The position numbers and the translations under genes are program-made. Source: a virus. From it: 33,145 nucleotides of DNA. Under the pieces are notes generated by a model, which saw only the letters and a program-made list of their open reading frames with translations, was not told where the DNA came from and made no database searches. Shown piece after piece: positions 8,985 through 16,141 of this stretch. Positions within the stretch are counted from its first letter, which is position 1, and every line of letters begins with the position of its first letter. The stretch is taken from IMG/VR virus record IMGVR_UViG_3300042922_000471, positions 1 through 33,145 of that record. One strand, 5' to 3'.

Positions 8985-9902
8985 ATGGCACGGCCAACAA
9001 AAGAAGGACTGGACTATTTCCCCTTGGACATTGACTTCGACCAGGACGACAAGCTGGTCGTGCCGGTGAATAAATTCGGCATGCAAGGCCTTGGCATCAT
9101 CGTGAAATTAATGGCCGAGATCTATCGAAATGGCTACTTCTACCCTTGGGGGGAGCGGGAGCAATATGTATTCGGTAATCGAGTTAATGTTGACATTAAT
9201 TCGATAAATGATGTCGTAAACGAATGTCTAAAGTGGGGATTCTTCCACGAGGGTCTGTTTGAAAAACATCAGATTCTAACCTCGAAGGGATTCCAAAAAA
9301 GGTTCATTGAAGCATCCAAGCGGCGCAAAGTTACGACGTTCATTTCGGAATATACGCTGATTGATCTGAGGGCTGCCTGCAAAAAGTGCAGCCCTATAAA
9401 TGAGGTTGATGTTAACGGAAACGAAGTAAATGTATACATTAACTCCGATAAAGTTAGCAATATGTCAACAGAAAGTACACAAAGAGAAAGTAAAGAGAAA
9501 GTAAAAGGAAATAAAAGAGAAAGTAAAAAAGATATAAAAGATTTATCCGCCGAAATTTTCAATTTCCGCTCCCGGTATTCTGCGGAGCTATTAAAAATTA
9601 TAGATCAATACCTGGACTTCATTCGGGAGACCCGAAGCAGCAAAAAGATAGCAGATAGTATCATCGTGAAAATTCTGAACTATTTTTCCAAGTACAGTCT
9701 GGTGCAGGTCGAATACGCCATGCTACAGCACATGAGCATGGAGGATAAGCGGAGCGCACCGGAAATGTACACCTTCGGCATTATCCGCAAGAGTACAGAG
9801 GCTGAGGCAGCAAGGAAACTGCAGCAGCTAAGGGAAGGCCGCAAGGGAGGAAAACAGCCTTGGGATTCTGATGCCTATCTTGATTCCCTGAAAGAGGAGT
9901 GA
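8985..9902 (+). CDS. replication initiator (DUF4373/Lin1244 N-terminal domain, DnaD-like)
   Basis: The first 120 residues (ARPTKEGLDYFPLDIDFDQDDKLV...KFGMQGLGIIVKLMAEIY) are the DUF4373 winged-helix domain found at the start of replisome organisers of Bacillota phages. A Lys/Glu-rich linker (about 160-185) follows and then a helical C-terminal part (about 190-285), likely DnaD-like. It would bind the phage origin and recruit the loader and helicase encoded next. The linker is encoded by AAAGAGAAAGTA repeats that may themselves be part of the origin. Starts at ATG 8985 after GGTGGGAT. Comparable to the SPP1 G38P position in a 38-39-40 type set. Confidence 0.8.
   Translation: MARPTKEGLDYFPLDIDFDQDDKLVVPVNKFGMQGLGIIVKLMAEIYRNGYFYPWGEREQYVFGNRVNVDINSINDVVNECLKWGFFHEGLFEKHQILTSKGFQKRFIEASKRRKVTTFISEYTLIDLRAACKKCSPINEVDVNGNEVNVYINSDKVSNMSTESTQRESKEKVKGNKRESKKDIKDLSAEIFNFRSRYSAELLKIIDQYLDFIRETRSSKKIADSIIVKILNYFSKYSLVQVEYAMLQHMSMEDKRSAPEMYTFGIIRKSTEAEAARKLQQLREGRKGGKQPWDSDAYLDSLKEE
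9481..9525 (+). repeat. iteron-like AAAGAGAAAGTA repeats inside the initiator gene
   Basis: Exact 12-bp copies start at 9481, 9492 and 9514, that is at spacings of 11 and 22 bp, one and two helical turns; a partial copy precedes them at about 9470. The tract is AT-rich and lies inside the replication initiator gene, where many phages hold their origin. It encodes a low-complexity KE-rich linker, so a simple coding explanation is also possible. Confidence 0.4.
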
Positions 9903-12041: not shown

Positions 12042-12725
12042 ATGTTGAAATCAGCTTCGCAATTAATCAGTGAGATTCTCAAAAAGCATCTTCCAGAGAA
12101 ACAAGAAGACCATAAAACCGAAGCATTGAGAAAGTCGGTGCTGAGAACATCAACACTTTTGGACCTGATGGAGGATGGGAAACTTAAGCAGGATTTGGAA
12201 CAATACTACCTTTCTCAATGCGAACAATTTGCTGAACGTATCGCATTGAAACAAAGAATGGGTTTGCTTGCTGCTTTCCACCCCGTAAGCCAGGGAATTA
12301 TGCTACAACCGGCTCCCGCTCAAGATCCCCGCAAGCAGGCGGACAACGAGATCAACAATTTGAAGCGAATCAGCGAAGTCGTCGCAGAGGTATATCAATA
12401 CATGTGCATGAAGAGAGACGAGCGGCGGCTCCATTGCTTGGCGGGTATCCAAGAGCGGCGTTTCCTGATCCGGCAGCAGCCAGATAACCAATGGGGTGTA
12501 TACGAGCTGTGCAAAGCGGTCTACGAGCTGGCCGAGCTGGACCGAGTAAACTTCAATGCCGCAGGGCTACCGGAGAAGTTGGAGCTCATCCTTGAACTGA
12601 TTCCTTTTGCGGAAAACAAAGCCGTTTGTGAAGGTGTGATGGAGTATCACGACTCCCGCTTACAGCAAGGATGGGAAATGGCGTACTTACAGGAGCCGGC
12701 TCATGAGCAAGCCGATAGACTATAA
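12042..12725 (+). CDS. helical protein of unknown function
   Basis: ATG 12042 has AGGAGG 8 nt upstream (227 aa); a longer frame to 11955 lacks such a site and overlaps the previous gene. It is helical and charged, with a segment AELDRVNFNAAGLPEKLELILELIPFAENKAVCEGVM near the end. No motif is recognised. The last 23 nt overlap the sigma factor gene, so the two are likely translated together; a functional link with the sigma factor (for example as a partner) is possible but only inferred. Confidence 0.6.
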   Translation: MLKSASQLISEILKKHLPEKQEDHKTEALRKSVLRTSTLLDLMEDGKLKQDLEQYYLSQCEQFAERIALKQRMGLLAAFHPVSQGIMLQPAPAQDPRKQADNEINNLKRISEVVAEVYQYMCMKRDERRLHCLAGIQERRFLIRQQPDNQWGVYELCKAVYELAELDRVNFNAAGLPEKLELILELIPFAENKAVCEGVMEYHDSRLQQGWEMAYLQEPAHEQADRL

Positions 12726-13851
12726 CCCGCATTTAGGGCAAAAGGACGAAGTCGTTCAGCAATACATGAGGATGGTCCACTATTATGCTAATCGGTACAA
12801 AAAGCGGTGTACAACCACGATTAGCTATGACGATTTAGTAAGCGAAGGGACTATTGGCTTAATCAAAGCTTTTAACAAATATGACCCGACGGCATTCGGT
12901 GGAAAAGTTACAAGGTTTTCCACCTTCGCCGTTCCTTACATCCAGGGAAACATTCTTCGTGTTCTTCGCGAGAAAAGCGGGTTAGTCAGACCGCCCCGGT
13001 TGATTCATGAAACAGCTGCAAAGATCAGATGGAAGGACATGTATGACAGTTCTCCGGAAGAGATTGCAGCAGAGTTGGAGATATCGCCCGATTTGGCCGC
13101 CAAAACACTGCACTACTTGAACAACGCCTCTGTTGTCTACTTGGATAAGCCGATATATTCAGACGGAGAATCTGAAATCACCGGTCTCGATCAGTTGGGC
13201 GGAATAGACGATTTATCCGGCATTATGATTCAGGAATTTGTATCATTCCTTAAACCGAAGGAACAGCAGATTTTCCTGTTGCGGTGTGAAGGGAAGCCAC
13301 AAGCTGAAATCGGTGAAATCGTAGGTACGACACAACCCCAAGTGGGGAGGGCAATCCGGCGAATCAATGCACGATTTGAAAGATATATGACCAATCCTGA
13401 AAGTGAGGAATTTAACATGACAAGAGAAATGACCACACGCAAGATCAATGCTGAAGAAGCCAAACGGCTGGGAGTGAGAACGGTGCTGGATGAAATCGAA
13501 TGGTATTCAGGTGAAGCCGCTTCTGGAATTGCGAGTGTCAGCCTCAATTCATTGGGAATGCACATCAGCCGGCAGGCAGCTGAGACGCTGAATCTGAAAC
13601 CAGGCGATTTCATCCAGGTAGGGTTTAACGGTGCGCTGCTCCGCATGGTAATTCGCAAGACTGATACGGGAACCAAACTGAACAAGTCTACCGGTACCAG
13701 CGGATCGGTGGCGACCAACAATAAAGCAATCGGACGCTGGATTCTCAGCAAGAATGTTGTTCGTAAACGTTATGCACTTCAGTTCGATGAAACCACGCAG
13801 GTCTACTTCATCCAACTCGAAGCAGATGTTCAGGAAGCGGGTACCGCCTAA
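12703..13851 (+). CDS. phage sigma-70 family factor (SigB/SigF-like) with extra C-terminal domain
   Basis: Residues 1-238 form a complete small sigma factor: region 2 (about 20-92, including SYDDLVSEGTIGLIKAFNKY and RFSTFAVPYIQGNILRVLRE), region 3 (about 105-145) and region 4 (about 184-229, LKPKEQQIFLLRCEGKPQAE, then a QPQVGRAIRR recognition helix). It has no region 1, like SigB/F/G proteins, whose usual size is about 240-260 aa. A further 144 residues (239-382) follow, containing SLNSLGMHISRQAAETLNLKPGDFIQVG, which has the look of a swapped-hairpin AbrB/SpoVT-like fold. The ATG at codon 239 has its own ribosome site. It would direct host RNA polymerase to phage promoters. Confidence 0.85.
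   Translation: MSKPIDYNPHLGQKDEVVQQYMRMVHYYANRYKKRCTTTISYDDLVSEGTIGLIKAFNKYDPTAFGGKVTRFSTFAVPYIQGNILRVLREKSGLVRPPRLIHETAAKIRWKDMYDSSPEEIAAELEISPDLAAKTLHYLNNASVVYLDKPIYSDGESEITGLDQLGGIDDLSGIMIQEFVSFLKPKEQQIFLLRCEGKPQAEIGEIVGTTQPQVGRAIRRINARFERYMTNPESEEFNMTREMTTRKINAEEAKRLGVRTVLDEIEWYSGEAASGIASVSLNSLGMHISRQAAETLNLKPGDFIQVGFNGALLRMVIRKTDTGTKLNKSTGTSGSVATNNKAIGRWILSKNVVRKRYALQFDETTQVYFIQLEADVQEAGTA
13417..13851 (+). CDS. possible internal in-frame product: AbrB-like C-terminal domain alone
   Basis: Within the sigma gene, ATG 13417 is in frame and preceded by GTGAGGA 7 nt upstream. It falls exactly where the sigma fold ends (residue 239). The 144-residue product could be made separately as a stand-alone DNA-binding protein, or the site may be a relic of fusion of two adjacent genes. 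The segment about 37-75 of this part (LGMHISRQAAETLNL, then PGDFIQVGFNG) resembles AbrB/SpoVT hairpins. Confidence 0.4.
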   Translation: MTREMTTRKINAEEAKRLGVRTVLDEIEWYSGEAASGIASVSLNSLGMHISRQAAETLNLKPGDFIQVGFNGALLRMVIRKTDTGTKLNKSTGTSGSVATNNKAIGRWILSKNVVRKRYALQFDETTQVYFIQLEADVQEAGTA

Positions 13852-14315
13852 TGAAATTCAACGCACATCAAGCCACTCGCCAGATCATTGAACTGATCCA
13901 GGAAGCGAAATCCACCTATGAGCAGCTGGAAGCGGACGAACAGCGCTATACCGACGAATCCAATGACCTCAACCATGCACTGGAGCTGCTGCCCCTGACT
14001 CCGGAACAGCGGAGGGATTACGGGGAGCAGCTTGGAGAATGCCGCTGGAAGCGCCGGCAGGCGAAGGATGCAATGGAGCAGCTAGAGCCGCTTGTATCCT
14101 ACTTGAAATTACAGAGAAGCTTAATCGGCGGTCTTAACCAGGTCTATCAGGATATTAATACCGCAGTGCAGGAACAGTCCAAGCGTTATTATCGCGTCCG
14201 GGTTCGAAAGGACTTGGGCGAAGTATTTGAACATCGGGCAAAGGAGAAGGCAGCGCCAAAGGCTGCAGGCGTTTCGGTTCGGAGGGATCGGCGGGTGCGC
14301 TGCCGGCTGATATAG
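13851..14315 (+). CDS. coiled-coil protein of unknown function
   Basis: The ATG overlaps the sigma stop (TAATG). The 154-residue product is rich in Gln, Glu, Arg and Lys with heptad-like spacing over about 1-110 (IIELIQEAKSTYEQLEADEQRY...), so it is probably a coiled coil, ending in a basic tail (VSVRRDRRVRCR). It has no recognised domain. Translational coupling to the sigma gene may point to a related role. Confidence 0.6.
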   Translation: MKFNAHQATRQIIELIQEAKSTYEQLEADEQRYTDESNDLNHALELLPLTPEQRRDYGEQLGECRWKRRQAKDAMEQLEPLVSYLKLQRSLIGGLNQVYQDINTAVQEQSKRYYRVRVRKDLGEVFEHRAKEKAAPKAAGVSVRRDRRVRCRLI

Positions 14316-15141: not shown

Positions 15142-15200
15142 GAATGGCTGTCATTTCTCAATCAAAATATTCTGAAATTATTCCAGAGAGGATGAATCAA

Positions 15201-15599
15201 GTGAAAAGAATTTTGCTTTTAGTCGTTTTGGTAGGAGCAGCATTCACACTGAGCTCATGCTCTGACGCTGATATTGCGTCGGAGAATCTTTCCAAAGCAG
15301 CGGATAACTTTGAAATAGACCGCCGTATCGTGTTTTACAACGGGATTACCGACACCTATCTGCTTTCCATTGAGGGACGCTGCTCGCTTGGTAACAGTGA
15401 TGACCGGAACACGCAGGTCACTGTTACCTGTAAGACAGGGGAAAACGCCTATAAGAAGCATTTCCTTGGCCTGTCAGACAACGTGACTTACTTTGCTGAA
15501 CAGTTAGACTCCGCAAATGTCAGCGCATATCACTATCGTGTAGTGTTTAAGCCGCAGGCCATCGTGCCGGACATTGATTTAAAAGTTAGCGGAGAATGA
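15201..15599 (+). CDS. phage lipoprotein
   Basis: GTG 15201 (132 aa) has GAGAGGA 8 nt upstream and gives an ideal lipoprotein signal: MKRILLLVVLVGAAFTLSSC, with LSSC as lipobox and the lipid-carrying Cys at residue 20. The mature part is a predicted beta-rich domain with two further Cys that may form a disulfide (RCSLGN... and VTCKTG). It would be anchored to the outside of the membrane. Phage lipoproteins often block superinfection, but this one sits in the late-early region rather than with the repressor. A strong terminator follows. Confidence 0.75.
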   Translation: MKRILLLVVLVGAAFTLSSCSDADIASENLSKAADNFEIDRRIVFYNGITDTYLLSIEGRCSLGNSDDRNTQVTVTCKTGENAYKKHFLGLSDNVTYFAEQLDSANVSAYHYRVVFKPQAIVPDIDLKVSGE

Positions 15600-15656: not shown

Positions 15657-15693
15657 ATCAGCTCATGCTCATTATACCATATGAGGAGCTGAT
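15657..15693 (+). promoter_or_regulatory. inverted repeat masking the ribosome site of the ArpU gene
   Basis: ATCAGCTC (15657-15664) is complementary to GAGCTGAT (15686-15693), and the latter includes part of the GAGGAG ribosome site (15683-15688) of the gene that starts at 15698. In RNA this would sequester the site. If transcription starts within the repeat it would instead be a DNA operator. Confidence 0.4.
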
Positions 15694-15697
15694 ACAC

Positions 15698-16141
15698 ATG
15701 GGGGCAGAACCATTGATGGCAGACATCCAGCGAATTGACGAGGAAGCTACAAGAGACGCCGTCGAGAAGTACCTGAAGCAAGCCCGCGAATACATGGTCA
15801 CTGACTATATTCCGGAAGAGGCGAGCGTGACCGCCTCCATAAGCGCCACGCCACGCAGCTACACGGGCCTGACCAGCGATCAGACCGGGAACATAGCCAC
15901 CCGTAACGTAGACGAGCCGGAGCGCCGCAGGCGGCATGTAGACCGTGCGGAGCGGGCAATCAGTAGGCTGGGTTCACGGCAGCAGAAGCTTATCCGGTTT
16001 CGATATATAGATGATGATGACATTCTGGATATCGACGCCGCGCAGGAGCTGGGCTTCAGTGATCGGCACTACCGGCGTATTAAATCGCTGGCAATCTACC
16101 GCCTGGCGGGCATGCTTGGGCTGCTTATTTTGCGCGAATAA
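15698..16141 (+). CDS. ArpU/RinA-like late transcriptional regulator
   Basis: ATG 15698 (147 aa) follows GAGGAG by 9 nt. The C-terminal part is a sigma-region-4-like helix-turn-helix: RAERAISRLGSRQQKLIRFRYIDDDDILDIDAAQELGFSDRHYRRIKSLAIYRLAGMLGLL (about 85-145). The N-terminal half is helical with a middle linker. ArpU and RinA proteins activate late operons of Gram-positive phages. Directly after its stop lie four tandem 11-bp repeats and a promoter, then the structured RNA and the packaging genes, a fitting target. A hairpin covers its own ribosome site. Confidence 0.8.
   Translation: MGAEPLMADIQRIDEEATRDAVEKYLKQAREYMVTDYIPEEASVTASISATPRSYTGLTSDQTGNIATRNVDEPERRRRHVDRAERAISRLGSRQQKLIRFRYIDDDDILDIDAAQELGFSDRHYRRIKSLAIYRLAGMLGLLILRE

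Follow-up and report, generated by a model that had tools for sequence, protein, structure and literature searches.

The window analysed here is a virus contig of 33,145 bases, which encodes an integrase, a repressor, replication genes, a recombination directionality factor (RDF)-type protein, ArpU, terminase, and head and tail genes. This gene content, running from integrase to tail, indicates a temperate tailed phage, perhaps incomplete, and the virus infects Paenibacillus-type bacteria. The gene of interest is an open reading frame (ORF) on the plus strand, 12703–13851, which starts at an ATG with AGGAG 5' of the start and encodes 382 amino acids. The product matches PHROG 351 over residues 10–376 (E = 1e-60) and, as judged by its translation, this match and its homologues, is a phage sigma factor with a C-terminal AbrB/B3-like domain. 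The stop codon overlaps, via TAATG, the start of a downstream plus-strand gene at 13851–14315, which belongs to phrog_2717 and has no assigned function; a gene of the same type adjoins the sigma gene at locus L104 too. An ArpU/RinA-type transcriptional activator (phrog_248, E = 5e-27) is encoded at 15665–16141 (+), so that the phage has both a sigma factor and an ArpU activator, as the first-pass annotation had claimed. Between the sigma gene and ArpU, positions 15144–15599 encode a VG64/recombination directionality factor family protein (phrog_478, E = 3e-55).

Two further features of the window were recorded. Positions 1030–1542 on the minus strand give a weak match to a superinfection exclusion protein (phrog_4980, E = 8e-6). 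Within the replisome-organizer gene at 8985–9902, a purine-rich 11-bp repeat (AAAGAGAAAGT) recurs four times at positions 9481–9540, each copy overlapping the next; these are possibly the iterons of a phage origin. A promoter scan with the sigma-70 consensus gave matches no more numerous than in shuffled sequences, and no target promoter motif emerged.

Sigma-70 regions 2, 3 and 4 occupy residues 18–220 (12754–13362, +). Pfam places Sigma70_r2 at residues 18–91 (E = 8e-11, 42 bits, cut-off 24) and Sigma70_r4_2 at residues 176–220 (E = 3.5e-9, 36.6 bits, cut-off 25.7), and the match to Sigma70_r3 is weak (14.6 bits, under the Pfam cut-off of 25.3). In a phmmer search against solved structures the top two matches are the sigma factor chains 8x6g_H (E = 1e-16) and 1l0o_C (E = 4e-14). 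The initial description of this part as a SigB/SigF-like factor of the usual size agrees with regions 2 and 4 being above cut-off and with the best solved relatives, and on these sequence matches residues ~8–232 are classed as a full-size phage sigma factor, probably of the sigmaF/sigmaB type.

The remainder of the protein had been read as an added AbrB-like domain spanning residues 239–382. In a full-length model residues 238–274 form a low-confidence, disordered linker, and beyond it AlphaFold2, run on the domain with 21 relatives, predicts an independent fold with pLDDT 92–95 over the core. The AbrB-like assignment holds over residues ~279–320, the first hairpin unit (13537–13662, +): aligned by hhalign against MazE-family proteins (L079–L081, where L079 is Pfam MazE_antitoxin), this segment gives 93% probability, E = 3e-7 and 32% identity over 41 aa, and the predicted elements E40-43, E48-50, H52-57, E65-71 and E76-82 fit one AbrB unit in a monomer prediction. 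It does not extend to the whole of 239–382, where matches are weak and the best are to B3-type pseudobarrels. Compared with AbrB and MazE (SpoVT-AbrB) proteins, which the hairpin unit resembles, the domain is longer, with a second beta-alpha-beta-beta part, is fused to a sigma factor, and has no Pfam AbrB/MazE match. No Pfam family matches the domain, and no AbrB/MazE match was found among 21 members. We considered and rejected two AbrB halves in one chain (an internal repeat): hhalign of both halves finds nothing, which leaves secondary structure as the sole basis for a pseudo-dimer, and we make no such claim.

Structural comparison of the domain gave weak matches to known structures. Foldseek against the PDB yielded no match at E ≤ 0.001, with a B3 domain at rank 9 of the list (probability 0.60). 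In VIA the six best rows are all plant B3 DNA-binding domains (Z 3.1–3.5, below the level that the tool treats as meaningful; rmsd 3.5–4.3 Å over 87–91 residues), and all non-B3 entries have Z of 2.4 or less; no other coherent group of structures came out of the PDB comparison. The domain resembles these plant B3 domains (LEC2, FUS3, VAL1 and ARF5) over residues 38–138, a weak resemblance of fold only, with no sequence link. No AbrB, MazE or MraZ entry appears in the Foldseek or VIA rows, which does not count against them. Among predicted viral proteins Foldseek gave a series of matches at a probability close to 1, including many small stand-alone proteins (99–136 aa), and the best viral fold match is a 114-aa protein of Bacillus phage Mgbh1. 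A search of solved structures by sequence with a single domain protein found none. PHROG 1084 matches the domain weakly (E = 0.03); looked for in related phages it gave no match, and a control likewise matched nowhere. With the domain profile, the search of solved structures gave only CheW, at E > 1, which was taken as chance. Being weak, the fold matches do not establish DNA binding by the domain; the B3 resemblance together with the MazE-family match makes it likely without proving it, and we conclude that the domain probably binds DNA.

Homologues indicate that the domain is a module. It stands alone in loci L004 and L068: WP_274338680 (159 aa, L004 2932–3411) is a stand-alone domain, with a copy in L068. 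L004 belongs to a 215-kb Paenibacillus urinalis plasmid, NZ_CP118109, on which a separate sigma-like HTH gene lies 11 kb from the stand-alone domain gene. With its genes for a phage holin, ribonucleotide reductase and DNA polymerase III alpha, this plasmid looks like a large phage-plasmid. The short forms of L004, L068 and L074 carry AT-hook-like RGRPRK/RRGRPP sequences at the N-terminus, ahead of the domain. In L077 and L078 the fusion partner of the same domain is instead an HTH protein of unrelated sequence (MRPKKTGPDCGLTKRIF... and MKPLKDGPACGLTKKIF..., respectively).

Full-length homologues of the fusion are present in the Paenibacillus larvae phages Hayley/Vegas and Brevibacillus phage Emery, and also in IMG/VR contigs, a B. 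laterosporus genome and several Paenibacillaceae genomes. These sigma-domain fusions, in phages and prophages of Paenibacillaceae and Brevibacillus, are 31–44% identical to that of the window. In the first Paenibacillaceae family search the domain was found in 7 of 394 genomes, and scanning viral contigs with the single sequence P0001 turned up no relative. Apart from ArpU, TerS/TerL and the gene at 13851 (in a few loci), little detectable neighbourhood is common to the window and the other loci; beyond the fusion, few genes of these phages have a detectable counterpart in the window, so the sigma-fusion gene is retained as one unit in differing genomic contexts. In Paenibacillus phage PG1 we rejected the domain as the neighbour of a short sigma factor, the overlapping 174-aa gene being a Holliday junction resolvase (phrog_843).

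What the domain does for the sigma factor can be judged against a known precedent, the ECF41 sigma factors, which like the product of the window gene carry a C-terminal extension. In ECF41 factors that extension is large and controls activity: removing part of it increased activity ~20- to ~120-fold, and removing all of it abolished activity (PMC3426412). By analogy, the C-terminal domain could be a switch built into the sigma factor and acting in cis, through protein contact or ligand sensing, with the free domain, if made separately, inhibiting in trans as an antagonist or anti-sigma factor from the same gene. The disordered linker of the model would suit a swinging regulatory domain. However, the folds that the domain matches are DNA-binding ones (AbrB/MazE, B3) and include neither SnoaL nor any known anti-sigma fold, and its joining to an unrelated HTH protein argues for a DNA-related role independent of sigma. 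ECF41 proteins also differ in type, as ECF factors without region 3 and with a SnoaL-type extension, and the part of the ECF41 study considered here describes no nested start (PMC3426412). The window gene encodes a Group 3-type sigma factor with a weak region 3, and its domain has no SnoaL Pfam match. We regard a built-in switch, in cis or in trans, as the main rival reading, and as an unlikely one.

The first-pass annotation had noted that the 144-aa part begins at an in-frame ATG with its own ribosome site. This ATG, at 13417–13419 within GTGAGGAATTTAACATG, is residue 239, and the putative internal translation initiation region, 13399–13419 (+), reads AGTGAGGAATTTAACATG, with the Shine–Dalgarno (SD) sequence GAGG (in GTGAGG) ahead of the ATG. 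The SD duplex of –11.8 kcal/mol is the top value among the 21 in-frame starts of the ORF, and local RNA structure is low. The sigma-70 consensus scan found no match upstream of this start on the plus strand. The predicted short product, the C-terminal domain alone (13417–13851, +; 144 aa), is backed by the AlphaFold2 fold, the stand-alone homologue and the viral look-alikes.

The internal site is conserved. All 20 sigma fusions examined have, exactly at the junction, a strong SD sequence followed by an in-frame ATG or GTG, which is the strongest start of the 45 codons before the domain. These fusions reduce to 16 representatives, which form about 11 lineages sharing no more than ~62% identity. 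SD duplexes across the 20 fusions range from –9.4 to –13.2 kcal/mol. As background, such a start occurs in 38 of 964 equal 45-codon stretches (3.9%) of other long ORFs at the same loci. Among the ~20 in-frame starts per ORF, the junction start is the best internal one in all 16 representatives; in L058 and L071 it ranks second, the better start lying near the true N-terminus. Compared with the rest of the ORF, the surroundings of the junction start show less RNA structure (mean percentile 0.79, KS p = 6e-4). Translational pauses have been proposed at domain boundaries, and the SD-like sequence, located at just such a boundary, might be a pause that helps the sigma part to fold before the domain, with no short protein made. 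A pause, however, needs no in-frame start codon at the right spacing; all 20 junctions have one, whereas a start in frame follows just 42 of 417 (10%) strong SD-like sites inside other ORFs, and we consider a pause very improbable.

Codon usage and linker sequences bear on whether the start itself has been selected. Upstream of the junction start, synonymous codon choice favours SD strength when the 16 representatives are pooled (Stouffer p = 6e-5, Fisher p = 0.002, values that are approximate because the sequences are related); the L006/L007 group shows no codon bias toward SD strength. The linker residues before the start vary (PESEEFN-M, PRKEERS-M, LKREAIK-M, KVERRDS-V, FEKGELI-M), so that the protein sequence alone does not explain the start, and in two lineages the Met is replaced by a GTG-coded Val. 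L006 and L007 are 86% identical: the GTG of L007 is GTT in L006, where an ATG lies two codons further, so that the start shifts and yet persists. The HTH fusions L077 and L078, which share the domain, have a junction without such a start, indicating that the internal start goes with the sigma fusion. That the start is a by-product, with no selected function, of protein constraints on an acidic/basic linker (KE/EE/RE plus Met) is the least probable explanation of those considered here, since, even if Glu, Lys, Gly and Arg codons readily spell GGAG and the synonymous-codon test is not significant for any single sequence (p 0.06–0.58), it is at odds with the pooled codon bias, the unconserved linker residues, the shifted start and the L077/L078 junctions. 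We regard it as very likely that the internal start is under selection and, judging from these sequence features, likely that a short 144-aa protein would be made from it.

Starting from the two-part architecture and its conservation, the conserved internal start, the separate domain gene and the predicted independent fold, all of which can be read from the sequences, we infer production of the short protein, DNA binding by the domain and some joint action of the two products. On balance, we favour a model in which one gene would yield a sigma factor with an AbrB/B3-like DNA-binding domain and that domain alone, two regulators that may cooperate. Translation from the first start would give the sigmaF/sigmaB-type sigma factor carrying the C-terminal domain, and the conserved internal ribosome site at the junction would give the domain alone. 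The sigma part would take over the host RNA polymerase core, and the fused domain, on its flexible linker, would grip DNA beside phage promoters, probably upstream of –35 and near region 4, thereby adding promoter selectivity. The free domain, translated from the same mRNA, would bind either the DNA that the fused domain grips or that fused domain itself, and may either build a larger complex with the full-length form, which we favour, or compete with it and limit the sigma factor.

AbrB-type proteins form oligomers. This property, and the analogy with Cas11 of type I CRISPR-Cas, in which internal in-frame translation yields the C-terminal part of a large protein as a separate subunit (PMC11899642), are the reasons for which we favour a partner role. 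The proteins and their function are unrelated to those of the window gene; what is alike is that a large protein is made together with its own C-terminal part. That the free domain would be a partner rather than a competitor or cis-regulator is, on this analogy, a tentative reading.

A parallel is found in Herelleviridae. The sigma factors of Bacillus phages P59, 278BB001 and SBSphiJ6 and of Lysinibacillus phage LysYB1 carry a C-terminal HTH-tail extension, and in-frame starts are again present at the junction: ATG 252 in P59 (SD –12.9), TTG in LysYB1 (–11.9), and GTG in 278BB001 and SBSphiJ6 (–8.7). In phages CM1 and BM15 the HTH-tail extension is a separate gene directly behind a sigma gene. 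The comparison is a small sample of three or four lineages (loci L112, L113, L111, L117, L118 and L119), and hhalign finds no link between the HTH-tail extension and the domain of the window. PHROG 8794 is annotated ‘sigma factor’ and is actually the extension alone. The arrangement suggests the same logic, a sigma factor and a partner that are fused and also separately available.

The sigma fusion as such is already known in databases as a sigma factor (phrog_351 and deposited phages). The PHROG 351 sigma factors of Hayley/Vegas and Emery have the same full-length architecture, at 33–34% identity over 97% of the protein, and are annotated ‘RNA polymerase sigma factor’, without annotation of an internal start or a second product. 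In the open-licence literature searched, we found no description of the nested second product, the AbrB/B3-like identity, or the stand-alone and HTH-fused forms of the domain. Gene finders would miss the second product because its start is in frame.

Transcription cascades had an early model in phage sigma factors, and the usual view assigns a single protein to each such gene. We raise as a possibility that in Firmicute phages a single gene has repeatedly come to specify, as overlapping products, both a sigma factor and its DNA-binding partner. The fused form would direct RNA polymerase to the promoters of the phage, and the domain that is translated separately would assemble with the fused form or tune it. 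If true, this would be a general and unreported design with two unrelated partners, AbrB/B3-like in Paenibacillaceae phages and HTH-tail in Herelleviridae. The conserved second start predicts a hidden regulator in deposited phages, including P. larvae phages Hayley and Vegas and Brevibacillus phage Emery. The window gene offers a concrete and easily tested case, a sigma factor with its own predicted DNA-binding domain whose mRNA would also supply that domain in free form, and gives reason to seek nested products in other phage regulators.
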